This document shows positions 1,491 through 9,735 of a DNA stretch of 61,968 bases, one piece after another. The position numbers and the translations under genes are program-made. The notes beneath the pieces were generated by a model. It had not been told where the DNA came from. It did not search any database and worked only from the letters and a program-made list of their open reading frames with translations. Source of the stretch: Thermodesulfobacteriota bacterium (GTDB lineage Bacteria > Desulfobacterota > BSN033 > UBA1163); assembly GCA_026415035.1 (NCBI GenBank), contig JAOAHX010000018.1, forward strand, positions 1-61,968, given 5' to 3'. Numbering within the stretch: position 1 is the first letter of the stretch; each line of letters starts with the position of its first letter.

Positions 1491-2087
1491 TTACGCTTCT
1501 TCGACCCGAGGATTCGATTCGGAGGAGGGCCATGCTGGGATGGAAACCCCCATGGGAATCTTCTTCCGGTTCTCGGGATCGAAGCTCCACTTCCCCCCGA
1601 TGGGCCTGTCCCCTTCGAGCAGGATCTTCAACCTCTTTCTCTGGGCCATGTAGAAGCGGGTCATGGAGAAATGACCGGCCCCTTTGAAAAAGCTGAGGAG
1701 CCACTCCTCGGGGGTGAGAGATGCCGGGCTGGGTAATCGGTGAAGGCCCATCCGTCCCTTTCGGGCCTCTTGCTTCAACCCTTCTTCGAGCCCCCTGTCC
1801 ACCGGGTCCACAAACCAGATCTCTTCGACCTTCTTTTGGCGAAGGGACTTAAAAAGATCCTCTCGAAAATCGAGGGAGTGGAGGCGATAACCTTGCGCCT
1901 CAAGCCTTTTCTTATAGGCCTGCATCGAGGCCCGGTGGAGCAGAAGTTTTTTCTTGTGGAATTTGAGGGGGATCGCCCCTCCGAAGAAGAAGCAAGGGGC
2001 CTCCACCAAAAAGATCTCCCTCTCCTTCGAGAGGACGGGAGAGGATTTAAAAAGTTGATGGGGGAAGATGAGGGCGGCCTGCTTCAT
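1491..2087 (-). pseudogene. Truncated cryptochrome/photolyase-related protein (DPRP N-terminal domain only)
   Basis: A 198-residue ORF starting at MKQAALIFPHQLF (AAAGGGA upstream) matches the N-terminal antenna-binding domain of deoxyribodipyrimidine photolyase-related proteins (FeS-BCP/CryB/PhrB type). Landmarks are FPHQLF, FFFGGAIPLKFHKKKLLLHRASMQAY, FVDPVDRG and GGKWSFDPENRKKIP. Family proteins are about 500 residues; the FAD-binding helical domain and the four iron-sulfur cysteines lie in the missing C-terminal part. After RKKIP only about 20 unrelated residues precede the stop at 1491, and the next gene starts within 100 bp, so the rest is deleted rather than frameshifted. Either it is a pseudogene or a retained stand-alone domain. 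Its frame is intact and it sits in a run of co-directional genes. Confidence 0.7.
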
Positions 2088-2118
2088 GAGATGTCCCTTT
2101 GCGGCCAAAGCTTCCGTT

Positions 2119-3312
2119 TCAGTCTGTAAAACGAAAGCGCCAGAGCGCAATGACGAAGAAAAAAGACGCAAACCCAAGAAGAATGGAGACCTCCGGGAGA
2201 ACGGCGTTGACCCCAAGGCCCCTCAGGATCACATCGTGATATCCGGCCAACGCCCAGGCGTGAGGGGTAAAGAGAGAAAGCGTCTTCATCCAATCCGGCA
2301 TGATAAAAGAGGGCACCATCAGCCCCCCCAGGGCCGACAGGCTCACCGCCAGGAGCACTGAGAGGCCATTGACCTGAGCTTCGGTTCGGCCCAGCGCGGC
2401 CACGAAGAGCCCCATTCCATTGGCGGAGGCCGCAAGGGCCAGGGAGACGAGGATCAAAGCGGGGAGGGATCCGATCCGGATCCCGAAGATCAAGACCCCG
2501 ATGCAGAACATCAAGGCCGTTTGAATCAAGTTGACGAGATAGTAGGGAAGAAGTTTTCCGATGAGGAGTGTGGCCTTGGAAAGGGGGGCGGAGAGAATTC
2601 TCTGAAAGGTGCCGTCCTGCTTCTCTTTCAAGAAACTGGAGGCCAAGGTCAGGACGATGAAGAAGACCCCAAATATGGTGTAGGCCGGGACATTCTGTTC
2701 GATCGCTGTGGGACGCCGCTCGAACCGATACGATTTGGGGAAGGTATGGATCACCTTCACCCTCGAGGGCCGAATTTCACCCCCGAGGGGAAGAGAGGTC
2801 CCGCCCCTGGAGGGGAAAGGCGCTAAAAAGGCCCGTTGCTCGATCACACCTGCGATGGTTCCTTTAACCGTGGCCAGCAGTTGAGCATTCATGGCCGGAT
2901 CGCTCAAGAGACGAACGGTCGCCTCTCTCCTTCCGGAGCCCTCCCCCCTCTCCATCACCGTTTCCGTGAACCCCTCTGGAAAGAGGAGTGCTAAGGGATA
3001 GATCCTCTGCTCGATGAGGTCTTCCGCGATCTCCGAGGTCAGGGGTCTGCCCTCGTGAGTCTCCATCAGGACAAACCCTTCGATGCGTTTGAGGTCGACG
3101 ATGGCTTGGTCTGCCAGTGGGCAACCCGGTTGACGAACGACCAGGATGCGGATCGGGTGACTTTTGCTCCCCGCTTCAAAAACCCCCTCCAAGGCAAAAC
3201 TCATCACCAGAATAAAAAAGATCGGCATGATAAAGAGGAGGGCCAAGGCTTGACGATCCCGAAGCAGGACCTTCCATTCTTTAAGAGTAATGGCCATCAC
3301 CCGGTCGATCAT
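2119..3312 (-). CDS. ABC-2 type transporter permease
   Basis: A 397-residue permease. It has an N-terminal membrane helix (ALALLFIMPIFFILVMSFALEG), a large extracytoplasmic domain of roughly residues 40-215, then five hydrophobic segments (TIFGVFFIVLTLASSFL, LPYYLVNLIQTALMFCIGVLIFGI, LPALILVSLALAASANGMGLFVAAL, VNGLSVLLAVSLSALGGLMVPS and VSILLGFASFFFVIALWRF). This is the layout of ABC-2 half-transporters such as YhhJ/YbhR, which pair with a drug- or lipid-exporting ATPase. It starts 1 nt after the stop of the ATPase fusion gene (TGAGATG), so the two are almost certainly co-translated. The substrate is probably exported; the gene upstream suggests a glycolipid or modified polyisoprenoid rather than a drug, but this is inference. 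Confidence 0.85.
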   Translation of the reverse strand: MIDRVMAITLKEWKVLLRDRQALALLFIMPIFFILVMSFALEGVFEAGSKSHPIRILVVRQPGCPLADQAIVDLKRIEGFVLMETHEGRPLTSEIAEDLIEQRIYPLALLFPEGFTETVMERGEGSGRREATVRLLSDPAMNAQLLATVKGTIAGVIEQRAFLAPFPSRGGTSLPLGGEIRPSRVKVIHTFPKSYRFERRPTAIEQNVPAYTIFGVFFIVLTLASSFLKEKQDGTFQRILSAPLSKATLLIGKLLPYYLVNLIQTALMFCIGVLIFGIRIGSLPALILVSLALAASANGMGLFVAALGRTEAQVNGLSVLLAVSLSALGGLMVPSFIMPDWMKTLSLFTPHAWALAGYHDVILRGLGVNAVLPEVSILLGFASFFFVIALWRFRFTD

Positions 3313-3313
3313 C

Positions 3314-4765
3314 TCATCCGTCCCTGAGGGTCCTGCCGGTTAAATGGATAAAGACCGTTTCCAGATTGGGCTCCGAAAGGTGGAGGGTTTTGAGTTTTCC
3401 CTCCTCGCTTCCCACGAAATCGAGCAACGCCCTCGAGGCCTGCTCAAGATGCGCTGTTTCGATGAAGAACACACGCTTCTGCGGGTCCACGATCGTGACC
3501 GACCCCACCCGTCTCATCTTTTCGATCAAAGGGTCATCGGCCTCGCCGTTCAGCTCGAGACGGATCATCCCCCTTCCGAACTCCCGGATGAGTTGGGCCG
3601 GAGGACCCAGGGCGATCACCTTTCCCCAATCCAGAATGGCGATGCGCTCGCACAGGCGATGGGCCTCCTCAATGTAATGGGTGGTGTAAAGAAGGCTCAT
3701 GCCGGCCTGGTTCAGGGAACGTAGGCTTTCGAGGATGGCCATCCGGCTTTGCGGGTCTACGCCCACCGTGGGTTCATCGAGGATGAGCAGGTCGGGCTCG
3801 TGGAGGAGACCTGCCGCAATATTGAGGCGTCGCTTCATCCCGTGGGAGAAGGTGCCTACCGGCTGGCCCGCCCGATCCCACAAGGAGACGAAGGTTAAGG
3901 CATGGGCCACCCGTTCTTCCAGGTGTCTTCCTTTTAAGCCATAAAGCCTCCCGAAGAAGATGAGGTTGTCCCGTGCGGTCAAGGAGGGATAAAGGGCCAG
4001 GTTCTGGGGGACCAAACCGAGTTTCGTCTTGGCCTCCAGGGGGTTTGATAGGAGGTCGATCCCGTCGATTAGGATCCGGCCCCGGTCCGGAGGGATCAAT
4101 CCGGCCAGTAGCCCGATGGTCGTCGTCTTGCCCGCCCCATTGGGCCCCAGAAGGCCAAAACACTCTCCCCTTCGGATCTCGAAGGTTAAGCCCTGAACCG
4201 CATCGACCTTGCCGAAACGTTTCCAGAGGTCTTTGACCAGAAGGATGGGGTGGTTTTTCGTTGTGGAGGACCCTTTTCCCCTTTCCGGGGTCAAGAGACG
4301 GCCGAAGCGGAATCGATTATACCTCTGGGCGATGATGAAGGGAAGATTTTCGGCCAGGGCATAGAAGATCATGACCCAACCCACCCAAGTGGGATTCCAC
4401 AGGAAGAAGAGGGGGGCGAAGAGGATGAAGATCCAATGGGTGGCCTCGGCCCGACAGGTCTCGACGAGGAATGCCTCGAAATAGCTCTGGTCCTTCCCGT
4501 TCAGTTGCTTTTTCGGAAATCCAAACCTTCCGAGAAAGGAGGCCCCGTCGGGCAGGTGTTGCTTCCACTTTTTAACCTTAAAGACGTCTTGGTAAAGGTC
4601 TCCCCCTTTTTCCCAGCTCCTCCCCCGATAAAGCCAACCCTTGGGATTGAAATGGCGGGCGGGCACCCTGACCATCAGGGCGACGACTCCGATGTGAATG
4701 ATAAACCAGATCACAAAATCGATGACGATGGTCCAGAAGGTGGGAAGGTGAATCAGCCTCAACAT
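3314..4765 (-). CDS. Fusion of CrtO-like acyltransferase domain with ABC transporter ATPase
   Basis: One 483-residue frame joins two domains. Residues 1-160 resemble CrtO, the glycosyl-4,4'-diaponeurosporenoate acyltransferase of staphyloxanthin synthesis. Shared features are two membrane segments (10-32 and 111-146), RVPARHF, KVKKWK (63-68), LPDG (71-74), ETCRAEATHW (102-111), and an IFYAL-N-P-QRYNR block (133-151). After a Ser/Thr linker near 165-181 comes a full ABC-2 ATPase: Walker A GPNGAGKTT at 207-215, Q-loop LVPQN, a degenerate signature SHGMKRRLNIAAG at 307, Walker B LLILDEP at 326-332, H-switch TTHY. The permease follows by 1 nt and the CrtQ-like gene precedes by 1 nt. The likely role is to acylate and export a glycosylated lipid. 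Domain calls rest on recognised motifs. Confidence 0.8.
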   Translation of the reverse strand: MLRLIHLPTFWTIVIDFVIWFIIHIGVVALMVRVPARHFNPKGWLYRGRSWEKGGDLYQDVFKVKKWKQHLPDGASFLGRFGFPKKQLNGKDQSYFEAFLVETCRAEATHWIFILFAPLFFLWNPTWVGWVMIFYALAENLPFIIAQRYNRFRFGRLLTPERGKGSSTTKNHPILLVKDLWKRFGKVDAVQGLTFEIRRGECFGLLGPNGAGKTTTIGLLAGLIPPDRGRILIDGIDLLSNPLEAKTKLGLVPQNLALYPSLTARDNLIFFGRLYGLKGRHLEERVAHALTFVSLWDRAGQPVGTFSHGMKRRLNIAAGLLHEPDLLILDEPTVGVDPQSRMAILESLRSLNQAGMSLLYTTHYIEEAHRLCERIAILDWGKVIALGPPAQLIREFGRGMIRLELNGEADDPLIEKMRRVGSVTIVDPQKRVFFIETAHLEQASRALLDFVGSEEGKLKTLHLSEPNLETVFIHLTGRTLRDG

Positions 4766-4766
4766 G

Positions 4767-5885
4767 CTATGCCTTCCTGACCCCGGTTCTGACCTCCCTC
4801 CCCTTCCAGCGGACTTTCCGGAGGAGGAGGATTCGAAGGAGAGAGGTGATAAAAATGGCGATGAAGAAGAAGAGGGGGATCGGATAGAGGAGGGCGGTGG
4901 GAAAACCGAAGTTTCCTATTTGCCTTAGCCTTCCGTGAAGTTGAAACACATAAAGACCATAGAGAAAGCCCCACCCCCAAACGTCCGCCAGCGGTCCGAG
5001 AAGCATCGATTGGATCAGCTCTCGGGCACTGCCCACGGCCCCGAATATCCAGGCGATGATCATCAGGAGGGTGGGCCGGGAGGTCGCCTTGGCCCCTGTC
5101 CCAAAGCCCTTGCTGAAGCCCTCGACGAGCGAAGGCAAGCCCTCGGGGTACATCCGGAAGGCTATGGTGCCTTTTCCACCAAAACCGTGGACGGGCAGGC
5201 CGGCGGCAAGGAAGGCCTTTCCGAGGGAGAGGCTCTCCAAGACCTCCCCTTTGACTCGCGCGTGGCCCCCCACATTCCAATAATCGTCTCGAGCACAGAT
5301 CATACAGGGTCCGAAGGCGCCCGAAGGCCGCACCTTCGATCCCAAAAGGGTGAAGGCGTTGACCCCTGCCACGGTGAGGAGGTTGAAGAAGGCCGAAAGT
5401 CGCTCATAGGCCTTTTCCATCCGGTGATAGGGCTGGAGGGTGACCAACCCCCTCAGCTCCAGGTAGGCCGATACGATCTTTTCAAGACCGTCGGGTTCCA
5501 TCACCGTATCGGCATCCAGGAAAAGGAAGAGTTCCCCTGTGGCCTTCTGGGTCCCTTGCCAACAAGCCCAGTTCTTCCCGGTCCACCCCTCGGGCAGGTC
5601 TGTGATCGAGATCACAAGACAACCCTCCCTTCGGGCCACCTCGGCCGTCTCATCATTGGACTGGTCATCGATGACGATGATCTCGTGGGGTTTAATCCCC
5701 TGCCGGCGAAGGGAGGGAAGTAGGACGCCGAGCCTCTTTGCTTCGTTGCGGGCAGGAATGAGAATGGAGAGTTTTGGAATCGGATGGGGAAGGGATTTCT
5801 TTCGGACGAGAAGCGGAATGTTCCATAAAAAGATGAAGCCGAAAGACCAGAAGAGAAAGAGAAGGTAGAATTTATCGATGACCAT
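4767..5885 (-). CDS. CrtQ-like family 2 glycosyltransferase (glycosyl-carotenoate/lipid type)
   Basis: A 372-residue membrane-anchored GT2 glycosyltransferase. An N-terminal helix (residues 4-27) precedes the nucleotide-sugar domain with IPARNE (43-48), VIDDQSNDETAEVA (71 onward) and the DAD metal motif (124-126). The middle part closely follows the CrtQ glycosyltransferase of staphyloxanthin synthesis: TLQPYH, FFNLLTVAGVNAFT, GAFGPCMICARDDYWNVGGH and TIAFRMYPEGLPSLVEGFSKGFGTGA. The C-terminus has several membrane helices and ends with a VRWKGREV motif, also like CrtQ. It is probably active at the cytoplasmic membrane on a polyisoprenoid acid or similar lipid. No carotenoid backbone genes (crtM/crtN/crtB/crtI) are in the window, so the acceptor is unknown. 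Confidence 0.8.
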   Translation of the reverse strand: MVIDKFYLLFLFWSFGFIFLWNIPLLVRKKSLPHPIPKLSILIPARNEAKRLGVLLPSLRRQGIKPHEIIVIDDQSNDETAEVARREGCLVISITDLPEGWTGKNWACWQGTQKATGELFLFLDADTVMEPDGLEKIVSAYLELRGLVTLQPYHRMEKAYERLSAFFNLLTVAGVNAFTLLGSKVRPSGAFGPCMICARDDYWNVGGHARVKGEVLESLSLGKAFLAAGLPVHGFGGKGTIAFRMYPEGLPSLVEGFSKGFGTGAKATSRPTLLMIIAWIFGAVGSARELIQSMLLGPLADVWGWGFLYGLYVFQLHGRLRQIGNFGFPTALLYPIPLFFFIAIFITSLLRILLLRKVRWKGREVRTGVRKA

Positions 5886-5894
5886 CGAGAAAGG

Positions 5895-6809
5895 TTAAGC
5901 GGAGGTGCCTACAAGGCTTCGTAGGGCCTCTCCAATCCGGGGGTACTTGAAGACGAACCCTCCTTCCAGTAACCTCTTCGGAAATACCCGTTGGCCTTCG
6001 AGGATGACGGAGCCGAACTCTCCCAAAACCAGTTTGATCATGAAGGCGGGGGCGGGCATGAACGATGGCCGGCCCAGAACCTCTCCAAGGGCCTTGGCGA
6101 GGTCCCTGTTCCTCACAGGGTTTGGAGAGCAGAGATTGACCGGCCCTGAAATCTCGGGATGCTCGATCAGAAAGACAAAGGCCTCTGCGAGATCCTCGAT
6201 GTGAATCCAAGAGAACCACTGCTTTCCGCTTCCGATCGGACCTCCGAGGAACTTCTTGAAAAGGGGGATCATCTGTCCGAGGGCCCCTCCCTTCTCTCCC
6301 AAGACGATCCCGAAGCGGGTGAGGACGACCCGGGTCCCCTTCTCCTCCGCCTTTAAGGCTTCGGCCTCCCATTCGACCGCGATCCTGGCCAAGAAGTCGT
6401 CTCCTGGGGGAGAATCCTCTGTCAGTTCCTCGTCGCCGCAGAATCCGTAGTAGCCCACCGCGGAGGTGCTGAAGAGGGTGAAGGGTTTTCGAGAGGCCAC
6501 CGGGATCGCCTCCACGACGTTCTGGGTGGTGAGGATCCGGCTCTCCCGGATGGCCCGTTTATGCTCCTCCGTCCACTTGCTGAAGATGGAGGCCCCTGCG
6601 AGGTTGATGACCGCATCGTGGGCTTGGACGGCCTGTTGCCAGGGGCCCCTCCGGGTGGGATCCCCTTCTAAATAGGAGACCCCGGATGGAGCCCTCCTTC
6701 CCCCTTGCAGGGAACGGGTCAGGACGGTGATCTCGTGCCCCTCCTGGGTCAACCGGTCGATCAGGCGCGTCCCGACAAACCCGGTTCCGCCCGTCATGAG
6801 GATCTTCAT
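5895..6809 (-). CDS. TIGR01777 family NAD(P)-dependent epimerase/oxidoreductase
   Basis: A 304-residue extended short-chain dehydrogenase with TGGTGFVG at residues 6-13, the VINLAGASIFSKWTEEHKRAIRESR block that defines the TIGR01777 (YfcH/SulA-like) family, the SAVGYYG active-site segment, IHIEDLAEAF, and the C-terminal DUF1731 region (MPAPAFMIKLVLGEFGSVILEGQRVFPKRLLEGGFVFKYP). The length is normal and a GGAGGGGGG site precedes the ATG. The family's substrate is not known. In other bacteria its genes recur beside photolyases, cryptochromes and carotenoid genes, which fits this neighbourhood. The stop lies 9 nt before the CrtQ-like gene, suggesting one transcript. Confidence 0.85.
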   Translation of the reverse strand: MKILMTGGTGFVGTRLIDRLTQEGHEITVLTRSLQGGRRAPSGVSYLEGDPTRRGPWQQAVQAHDAVINLAGASIFSKWTEEHKRAIRESRILTTQNVVEAIPVASRKPFTLFSTSAVGYYGFCGDEELTEDSPPGDDFLARIAVEWEAEALKAEEKGTRVVLTRFGIVLGEKGGALGQMIPLFKKFLGGPIGSGKQWFSWIHIEDLAEAFVFLIEHPEISGPVNLCSPNPVRNRDLAKALGEVLGRPSFMPAPAFMIKLVLGEFGSVILEGQRVFPKRLLEGGFVFKYPRIGEALRSLVGTSA

Positions 6810-6828
6810 CGCTCCCCCCTCCGATCCC

Positions 6829-7215
6829 CTATTTTTTGTCTCCGATCAAGGGCAAGACCTTGTCGATGCGGAAATAGACGAGATATTTGGTCCTGTCTTT
6901 ATAAACGGTATAGGCGGGACAGGGATCCTTCCTGCGGATCTGCTCGATCAGGACCGTGTCCTTCTCTTCCTTCAGTTTGGTCAGATAGAGCCTCTTTCCG
7001 ACATAGCCCGGCTTGTCCTCCATGAAGAGGTAGGCGGCCTTGGGGTTCGACTGGAGGTTCTTATGCATCAACCGATCGGCCATGATGAAGGCGACCGTCC
7101 TTTCGCTGATGAAATGGGGCCTTCCGTAAATGGCCATCCCGACCTTTCCATCGGCATCCGCTGTGGCGATCACGCCCCGACCCTGGGTCTTCTCGAAATA
7201 TTCGCTGAGCTTCAT
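6829..7215 (-). CDS. Small FMN-binding split-barrel (PNPOx-like) protein
   Basis: A 128-residue single-domain split-barrel protein: GVIATADADGKVGMAIYGRPHFISERTVAFIMADRLMHKNLQSNPKAAYLFME followed by GKRLYLTKLKEEKD. This matches the minimal pyridoxamine-phosphate-oxidase-like fold in which FMN or F420 binds at the dimer interface. The ATG has a strong AAGGAGGGGG site. It stands 19 nt upstream of the TIGR01777 gene and is the second protein of this fold within 6 kb; the two differ in length and sequence, so they are not a recent duplication. The reaction is unknown; a role in detoxifying peroxides, quinones or pigments is only a contextual guess. Confidence 0.75.
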   Translation of the reverse strand: MKLSEYFEKTQGRGVIATADADGKVGMAIYGRPHFISERTVAFIMADRLMHKNLQSNPKAAYLFMEDKPGYVGKRLYLTKLKEEKDTVLIEQIRRKDPCPAYTVYKDRTKYLVYFRIDKVLPLIGDKK

Positions 7216-7287
7216 AATCCCCCTCCTTCGCTGGATTTAGAATCCTCTCCGTATCATGATAACTCGAAATTTTGAAAAAGACACGTT

Positions 7288-8637
7288 TCAACGGAGCTCC
7301 TGGACCTTCCTCACATATCGATCCGCATCGAATTTCCTCTTCAGGCCCTTGTCGTTCATGTACCTCACGGTCCCGAAGATGGGCCGTTCCGCCCAGGGGC
7401 GGTCGTGTTTCCCGAAGCACCAGGCCACGCCTGTGAACCCGTTGGGATCCCTCCCGTCCAGCTCATATCGGTTGTTAAGGTATAAGGCCGATCGGAAGGC
7501 CTCCTCAGGCGTCGGGCTCCACTCGAGGATCTTCTTCCCCCAGTACATCCTCATGTAGCCGTGCATCTTTCCGGTGAGGACCATCTCCCTCTGGGCCGCG
7601 TTCCAGTAAGGGTCGTGCGTCTTCGCCCTCTCAAGCTCTTCGAGGCTATAGAGATAGGGCCGTCTGTCCTTTCGATGGGACGAAAGGGTCTTCCTCGCCC
7701 ACTCTGGAATCGCCTCATAGGAATCGTACCTGAGGTTGTAGAAGACGAAGTTCATGCTCAACTCCCTCCGAACGATCAGCTCCTCGAGGTAGGCCTCGGC
7801 CCCGGGGCTTCTGACCTCCCTCACTTTTAGGGCGATCCTCAGGGGCGAGATCTGTCCGAAGTGGAGGTAGGGACTCATGTGGGAGAGGGCATCGCAGGTG
7901 GGATCGTTTCTCAATTCCGGGTAACGATCGAGCTTCCCCTCGATGAAGACCTTGAGAAGGCGATGGGCCTCGTGGGCCCCTCCCTGGAAAGAGGAGACCT
8001 TTTTCACGCTCCGATCGATGCGAAGCCTCCGGAGGGCCCCATCGAGATCGTCGAGCTCGAAGGAGTCGAATTCGAGCCCGAGGGAGGAGCACCGGGGTTC
8101 CCGGTTGGGGAGGGGGACCAAGAAGTAATCGAGTTTTTTAAGGATCTTGGGCCGAAGCGTCGCCGCCGCATACTCCTCTTTTGGGGAGGCCTCCTCCACC
8201 GGAACGATCACGTCGCTTTCGACCTGGATCAAGGGGCAGTCGACCCGCCTGGCCACCTCCTCCCTCCAGCCTCTCTGGATCCTAAGGTATCCCCGATCCA
8301 CCACCACGAGGGAGGCCTTTTTGGCCATCTCGACCGCTCCCTTTTCGGGTGAGATGTGCCGGATGACCATCCGGATCTTTCTCTCCTCGAGGGATCGCTT
8401 GGTCTCCCGCAGGCCTTCCAACATGAAGGCATAGTGCCTCTCGTTCGCCTCGGGAAAGCGATCGGTGATCCCGAAAAAGACGACCAGGGGTTGGTCGAGC
8501 TCGTCGGCCTTCGAGATGGCATATTCGAGGGCATGATTCTCCTCGGCCCTCTGGGAGGCCTGCATCCAGTAAAGGACGTATTGGCCTTTGCGAATCGGTC
8601 GGGCGTTGAGGGCCTTGAGTCTCTCCTTCTGGATCAT
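7288..8637 (-). CDS. phr: Class II deoxyribodipyrimidine (CPD) photolyase
   Basis: A 449-residue class II photolyase that repairs cyclobutane pyrimidine dimers with FADH- and light. The N-terminal Rossmann-like domain carries the class II hallmark VLYWMQASQRAEENHALEYAI. The helical FAD domain has LRNDPTCDALSHMSPYLHFGQISP, ELIVRRELSMNFVFYN, and the C-terminal MHGYMRMYWGKKILEW and YLNNRYELDGRDPNGFTGVAWCFGKHDRPWAERPIFG blocks that bind FAD and the lesion. Length is typical. It begins 4 nt after the tspO stop and is presumably co-transcribed. The presence of an intact photolyase implies that the organism meets light at least occasionally, an odd trait if it is the strict anaerobe the other genes suggest. 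Confidence 0.93.
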   Translation of the reverse strand: MIQKERLKALNARPIRKGQYVLYWMQASQRAEENHALEYAISKADELDQPLVVFFGITDRFPEANERHYAFMLEGLRETKRSLEERKIRMVIRHISPEKGAVEMAKKASLVVVDRGYLRIQRGWREEVARRVDCPLIQVESDVIVPVEEASPKEEYAAATLRPKILKKLDYFLVPLPNREPRCSSLGLEFDSFELDDLDGALRRLRIDRSVKKVSSFQGGAHEAHRLLKVFIEGKLDRYPELRNDPTCDALSHMSPYLHFGQISPLRIALKVREVRSPGAEAYLEELIVRRELSMNFVFYNLRYDSYEAIPEWARKTLSSHRKDRRPYLYSLEELERAKTHDPYWNAAQREMVLTGKMHGYMRMYWGKKILEWSPTPEEAFRSALYLNNRYELDGRDPNGFTGVAWCFGKHDRPWAERPIFGTVRYMNDKGLKRKFDADRYVRKVQELR

Positions 8638-8641
8638 TTCC

Positions 8642-9139
8642 CTAACGGTTTAAGATATAGAGGGCGTAATTGAGGACCGCTGCAAAACTGACCCAGAGGT
8701 GGTAAGGGAGCAAAAGGAACCCGGCCCACCTCGAAACTTGGAAGAAGAGGTAGATCGTCAGGAGAATGGCCGGCCACAAGAGGAGGATGTCGATGAGTCC
8801 GAGGAGGGGGGATCGGAGGCCAAAAAAGGCGATGGACCATAGCGTATTGAACCCCAATTGGACGAAGAAGAAGACCAAACCGGCCCGCGCCCGGGGATGA
8901 TCCTTCCTCTGCCAGACCAAAAAGAGGGATATCCCCATCATGACGAAAAGGCCGATCCAGACGGGGGTGAAGACCCAGTTGGGCGGGGTGAAGGGAGGCT
9001 TCTTCAGGGCCTCATACCAGGTGGGGATGGCGGGCGTGGTAAAGAGGGAGCCGATGAGGCCTGCCAGCTGGCAGAGGAGGAGGCTTGCGGCCAGTTTCCC
9101 CAAATCCTTTAGATCGATCCCTCGTTTAAATCCCTTCAG
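8642..9139 (-). CDS. tspO: TspO/MBR family tryptophan-rich sensory protein
   Basis: A small five-helix membrane protein. The signature WYEALKKPPFTPPNWVFTPVWIGLFVMMGISLFLVW, the FFVQLGFNTLWSIAFFG helix and the PYHLWVSFAAVLNYALYILNR end are diagnostic of TspO, which binds porphyrins and helps control tetrapyrrole or light and oxygen responses. The frame has no ATG close to the domain. An ATG at 9211 would overlap the NUDIX gene by 76 bases and add a charged tail. A CTG at 9139 overlaps the NUDIX stop as CTGA and has GGAAGG 7 nt upstream, so I favour it, without certainty. Its place next to the photolyase and the pigment-type genes fits a photo-oxidative role. Confidence 0.85.
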   Translation of the reverse strand: MKGFKRGIDLKDLGKLAASLLLCQLAGLIGSLFTTPAIPTWYEALKKPPFTPPNWVFTPVWIGLFVMMGISLFLVWQRKDHPRARAGLVFFFVQLGFNTLWSIAFFGLRSPLLGLIDILLLWPAILLTIYLFFQVSRWAGFLLLPYHLWVSFAAVLNYALYILNR

Positions 9140-9735
9140 GAAACACCTTCCTTTTCTGCAGTCGAAATCAGGTCCAAAAACTGCTTCAGGATGCGGGCCG
9201 TTGCGCCCCATATCGTATGGGGCCCGTACTGATAGGCCGGTACGATCTCCCGCCTTCCCATCCGGGTGATCTCCTGCTCGGTGAGGTTCTCCTTCTTGAG
9301 CAGGAAGGAGAGGGGGACCTCGATCAACTCCGCGATCTCGATGGCACTGGTCCGGAACGGGTAGGGATAGGGGAAGAGGCCGACAAAGGGCGTGACGATG
9401 AACTGGGTCACGGTCAGGATGTCGTCCAAGGTTCCAAGGATTTGGACATCCTCTTCACGAAGGCCGATCTCCTCGTAGGCCTCCCGGAGGGCGGTCTTCT
9501 CGAGACTCGCATCCTTTTCATCGACCATCCCGCCAGGGAAGGAGATCTCGCCCTTATGATATTTCACCAAGTCGGTTCTTTTGGTCAGCAGGAGATGGCA
9601 GGAGCCGTCTTTTTGGAACAGGGGCACGAGCACCGCGGCACGGGCATAATTAGGGGGATGATCGATGACCCTTCTCTCCCTCGAAGAGAGGACCTGGATG
9701 ATCCGGTCGATCGAAATCCTTTTTCGATCCTCCAT
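9136..9735 (-). CDS. NUDIX hydrolase, CoA pyrophosphatase-like (NudL type)
   Basis: A 199-residue NUDIX protein. The Nudix box is complete (GGMVDEKDASLEKTALREAYEEIGL: G-x5-E-x7-REAYEEIG) and is preceded by LLTKRTDLVKYHKGEISFPGG, the UPF0035/CoA-pyrophosphatase motif that marks NudL-like enzymes, which split CoA and CoA derivatives into phosphopantetheine and 3',5'-ADP. The late IWGATARILKQFL helix also fits this group. Start at the ATG of MEDRKRIS; no strong ribosome site is visible. The stop overlaps the inferred tspO start. Substrate preference is inferred from family only. Confidence 0.85.
   Translation of the reverse strand: MEDRKRISIDRIIQVLSSRERRVIDHPPNYARAAVLVPLFQKDGSCHLLLTKRTDLVKYHKGEISFPGGMVDEKDASLEKTALREAYEEIGLREEDVQILGTLDDILTVTQFIVTPFVGLFPYPYPFRTSAIEIAELIEVPLSFLLKKENLTEQEITRMGRREIVPAYQYGPHTIWGATARILKQFLDLISTAEKEGVS

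Follow-up and report, generated by a model that had tools for sequence, protein, structure and literature searches.

Three genes of the minus strand, separated by 1-nt gaps, were found in the window (the whole stretch of 61,968 nucleotides analysed here, from an uncultured anaerobic bacterium). The upstream gene (4767..5885) codes for a CrtQ-like GT2 glycosyltransferase of 372 aa (PF00535, E 8.6e-23), which displayed 44% identity over 360 aa with its counterpart in a Salinicoccus crt locus. It is followed by a single open frame of 483 aa (3314..4765) where a CrtO domain (residues 1-161, 4283..4765) is joined to an ABC ATPase (3317..4246) through a linker located around residues 159-173 (4247..4291). 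The CrtO domain matched PF18927 over almost its full length (E 3.4e-33, 115 bits for a cut-off of 27.3, profile positions 3-121 of 123), while the C-terminal part matched PF00005 (ABC_tran, E 3.6e-32, 112 bits) and displayed the complete set of Walker A, Q-loop, signature, Walker B and H-loop motifs. The downstream gene (2119..3312) codes for an ABC-2 permease of 397 aa (PF12698, ABC2_membrane_3, E 2.6e-36). The initial annotation had proposed this arrangement from the DNA letters, i.e. three tightly spaced genes, a CrtQ-like glycosyltransferase, an N-terminal CrtO domain joined to an intact ABC ATPase and an ABC-2 permease as partner. Its gene boundaries were reproduced here and profile and similarity searches bore out each of the domain assignments. 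In carotenoid synthesis, CrtQ and CrtO are known for the finishing steps; in staphyloxanthin, the golden pigment of Staphylococcus, they glycosylate and acylate the carotenoid acid, respectively.

The CrtO part was 50% identical to CrtO of a Salinicoccus crt locus and retained the residues W67, K68, E102, R105, E107, H110, F120, N140, P142, R148 and R151, which are invariant in an alignment of 52 CrtO proteins including the window sequence as one row. Comparison with a congener yielded dN/dS values of about 0.08 for the CrtO half and 0.09 for the ATPase half, at high dS, indicating that both are under strong constraint. The closest curated NCBIfam model for the ATPase was TIGR01188 (drrA), with 276.6 bits, below its cut-off of 312.45. 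With full ATPase motifs and an ABC2_membrane permease, the pair has the make-up of an ABC-2 exporter.

The structural model of the CrtO domain (pLDDT 84) consisted of three long helices with shorter ones between the first and the second. Loop 34-92 and the C-terminus were positively charged across the 52 CrtO proteins, which places the C-terminus on the cytoplasmic side; three membrane helices with an N-out/C-in topology are therefore predicted as the likely arrangement. A cytoplasmic C-terminus fits the presence of the ATPase, which is necessarily cytoplasmic. Predicted pLDDT was below 50 at residues 160-192, suggesting that the linker is probably flexible. A Foldseek search with the CrtO model returned no match at E 0.001 or better. 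As for the CrtO fold, VIA gave a best Z of 6.9 (rmsd 3.7, 94 aligned), which is in the range of common helical arrangements; among the solved structures listed, none stood out as a relative. Pullulanase, a lone weak match in a PDB sequence search (0.014), was taken as a chance hit and rejected as a CrtO relative.

The fusion as such occurred in the window assembly only. PF18927 was recorded in nine of the 395 genomes of the phylum (window genome counted) and, in seven of the eight other carriers, CrtO stopped ahead of the ATPase core, the ATPase being encoded in a separate or overlapping frame. The fusion had been put forward as a feature of the system. Since in comparable relatives CrtO and the ATPase are encoded by separate neighbouring genes, it would rather be a lineage-specific detail, and a physical coupling of acylation to transport would concern this one lineage. 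Two observations, taken together, had been named in advance as arguing against the fusion: the genes do lie apart in relatives, whereas a sequencing error was not shown. Such an assembly or sequencing error, hiding two ordinary genes that overlap at TTGA, is an unlikely explanation that nonetheless deserves consideration. CrtO and ATPase are separate in the congener and in family members, the window genome is split into 81 contigs and the change that joins the two frames spans a single base. Moreover, enumeration of single indels showed that a one-base deletion anywhere in an 18-nt stretch generates a CrtO TGA stop overlapping a TTG start (TTGA), which is why an error keeps some weight. Yet, the alignment of the junctions showed the window to be already one base shorter than congener G007, insertion of a base gave no sensible gene pair, and the stretch contains no long homopolymer. 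Furthermore, the ATPase of G007 starts at its own ATG, which in the window is replaced by a codon that is no start codon. No ATG, GTG or TTG was found in the ATPase frame within the linker (4247..4291), the in-frame TTG of Leu158 (4292..4294) being the one codon nearby at which a separate ATPase might start. This loss of the ATG, together with the lack of another start nearby, makes a true fusion likelier than an error. A second odd junction was observed in G113, where an ATPase without the usual N-terminus (L009 1073-2376) lies beside CrtO on a contig of 3117 bases.

The order GT2-CrtO-ATPase-permease was recovered in seven further Desulfobacterota genomes and in two Methylococcaceae methanotrophs, Methylotetracoccus oryzae and Methylolobus aquaticus, which were the only CrtO carriers among 38 genomes of their family. 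A scan of GTDB contigs yielded 80 CrtO loci, most of them with a GT2 nearby; those with adjacent ATPase and permease belonged to the Desulfobacterota group and to the same two methanotrophs. In a tree of GT2 and CrtO (quick method, SH-aLRT support, no bootstrap), the ten cassette loci were all on one side of a branch with an SH-aLRT of 97, which suggests a single origin and transfer between phyla. Permease orthologues (at least 48% identity) occurred in nine of the 395 phylum genomes, i.e. in eight of the nine CrtO carriers versus one of the 386 others, G260 (Fisher p 6e-15, kinship of genomes being ignored in this test). The conserved partnership with an exporter thus held, through both the four-gene order and a permease that tracks CrtO. 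Most carriers are MAGs. Evidence on the other side comes from one Desulfobacterota carrier (G250), which displayed GT2-CrtO without ABC genes. In the titles and abstracts covered by a non-exhaustive literature search on CrtO and ABC transporters, no such fusion or cassette was described.

As regards the lipid, most CrtO loci of Bacillota adjoin crtN, crtP or a phytoene/squalene synthase. No squalene/phytoene (diapophytoene) synthase (PF00494) was detected in the window genome, a 97% complete draft, nor in the eight other Desulfobacterota carriers (completeness of all nine, 76-100%), using a search that was positive in congener G192 and in seven of 14 controls. Squalene-hopene cyclase was likewise not found in the window genome, and a hopanoid was rejected as the lipid on this ground. 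The polyisoprenoid considered by the initial annotation, if of the squalene/phytoene type, is consequently not supported for Desulfobacterota, where the lipid is probably not made from squalene and the likeliest acceptor is a polyene or other acid of different origin. Both methanotroph carriers possess PF00494 and crtN-ald-crtN2 elsewhere in their genomes; the cassette may thus serve a C30 acid there, a C30 carotenoid acid being the likeliest acceptor in these two. PF00494 was also missing in several draft genomes of Spirochaetota, Chloroflexota and Clostridia carrying CrtO. In a Chitinivibrionales MAG (L033), crtN, GT2 and CrtO occurred together and PF00494 was not found in the genome. G368 (genome of locus L012) displayed a squalene-hopene cyclase (3e-145) with PF00494 undetected, so that the synthase may be missing from this assembly and absence from a draft is no proof.

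More specifically, the acceptor could be a polyene acid of the polyketide type (aryl-polyene/flexirubin-like), synthesised by a cluster located elsewhere in the window genome (G000:C6), which codes for three KS, a FabZ-like protein, a methyltransferase and a LolA-like protein (best model flexirubin LolA2, below cut-off). A polyene acid would be chemically near the acceptor of CrtQ, a polyene carboxylate. Yet, most family members without CrtO also had a KS orthologue of about 80% identity, while carriers outside the family showed only matches of 43-56%. Being family-wide, the KS orthologue does not co-occur specifically with CrtO; the cluster was rejected as a specific partner and its product is doubtful as the acceptor. 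A KS/FabZ/methyltransferase/LolA cluster and an MMPL transporter, near CrtI-like proteins and similar to clusters for aryl polyenes or flexirubins, were recorded at L138 1-11200 and L139 6700-12500. Even less probable is an ordinary glycosyl-acyl C30 carotenoid, whose backbone genes would be located elsewhere, be missing from the assemblies or have diverged too far. The gene content of the two methanotrophs speaks for it, as does the fact that the C30 genes of Methylobacterium extorquens lie outside a single cluster (PMC10448405). The window genome also codes for two CrtI-family proteins, both distant (about 25% identity to CrtN; 176 and 185 bits against TIGR02734, cut-off 238). This carotenoid reading is opposed by the missing PF00494 in all nine Desulfobacterota carriers and by the missing cyclase in the window genome.

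Altogether, the cassette is best read as making and exporting a glycosylated, acylated lipid, to which we assign a probability of roughly 0.6. By analogy with CrtQ and CrtO of staphyloxanthin, the GT2 would transfer a sugar onto a hydrophobic acceptor at the cytoplasmic side and CrtO would add a fatty-acid ester onto that sugar. The ATPase-permease pair would then extract the glycolipid from the cytoplasmic leaflet, transport being presumably outward. In the window genome, where CrtO and ATPase form one chain, each subunit of an ATPase dimer would bring a tethered acyltransferase, two in all. For the initial proposal of a line that glycosylates, acylates and exports, the CrtO/CrtQ kinship and the export are supported, a carotenoid as the lipid is not. 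It is improbable that the ABC genes encode a generic exporter of drugs or hydrophobes merely accompanying GT2-CrtO: the nearest curated models of the pair were of the DrrA/NodI and SagH/RbbA types, each below cut-off, and G260 carries the pair beside a regulator-like gene without GT2 or CrtO, so that transporters of this type can occur apart from CrtO, but order and tight spacing are conserved over several families and two phyla, the loci share one tree branch and permease and CrtO strongly co-occur. In its most complete form, the lipid-exporting reading becomes tentative: a glycolipid line of Gram-negative anaerobes, applying CrtQ/CrtO chemistry to a non-carotenoid lipid, with its own ABC-2 exporter and, in one lineage, acyltransferase and ATPase fused.

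Compared with known systems, the cassette resembles the CrtQ/CrtO pair of staphyloxanthin by its combination of GT2 and PF18927 acyltransferase, its 44-50% identity to Salinicoccus and its retained invariant residues. It differs by the additional ABC-2 exporter and, in the window genome, by the CrtO-ATPase fusion and the undetected carotenoid backbone synthase. With DrrAB-type exporters it shares an ATPase gene and a permease gene as well as drrA as best NCBIfam model; yet, its ATPase is below the family cut-off, is associated with a lipid-modifying pair and is fused to CrtO. The acyltransferase of mycobacterial acyltrehalose biosynthesis is, to our knowledge, unrelated to CrtO. Glycolipid acylation is also coupled to membrane transport in this mycobacterial system, as described in PMC4183827, but its MmpL10 belongs to another transporter class and the comparison is one of analogy. 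In M. extorquens, a glycosyltransferase likewise adjoins an acyltransferase (META1p3663/META1p3664) and not all pathway genes cluster together; C30 tailoring involves a lysophospholipid-type acyltransferase there and a CrtO homologue was not found (PMC10448405). The cassette would amount to CrtQ/CrtO tailoring with a dedicated exporter, probably acting in Desulfobacterota on a lipid that is not squalene-derived. The occurrence of this pair under selection with its exporter, and with squalene/phytoene synthase undetected, suggests that the family acts more widely. The cassette offers a genetic route to a so far undescribed lipid of the Desulfobacterota envelope. Should the fusion prove genuine, it would provide a natural example of acylation linked to transport.

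Within the window's family, the site of the cassette is a NUDIX-TspO-photolyase-PNPOx-SDR operon. Its flanking part in the window (5895..9735, minus strand; Pfam/NCBIfam) codes for an SDR (TIGR01777), a PNPOx, a class II photolyase, TspO and a NUDIX protein, in an order shared by relatives whether or not they carry the cassette. In G279, from the same genus, the SDR directly abuts the next PNPOx and the site is empty, identifying the cassette as an accessory insert. From such gene neighbours, a function under light or oxidative stress may be suspected. Photolyase was rejected as a strict partner, since it was present in 4/4 carriers versus 5/13 non-carriers of the family (p 0.08). A photolyase-related DPRP remnant (1491..2138, minus strand) with a large internal deletion falls inside the stretch that is absent from G279; tblastn with the 499-aa protein of a congener recovered only residues 7-210 and 475-498, about 264 internal codons being lost relative to that congener. 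In the congener G007 (L014 4225-7038), a Fur-family regulator and a peroxidase-family gene adjoin the cassette, which likewise hints at such a function.
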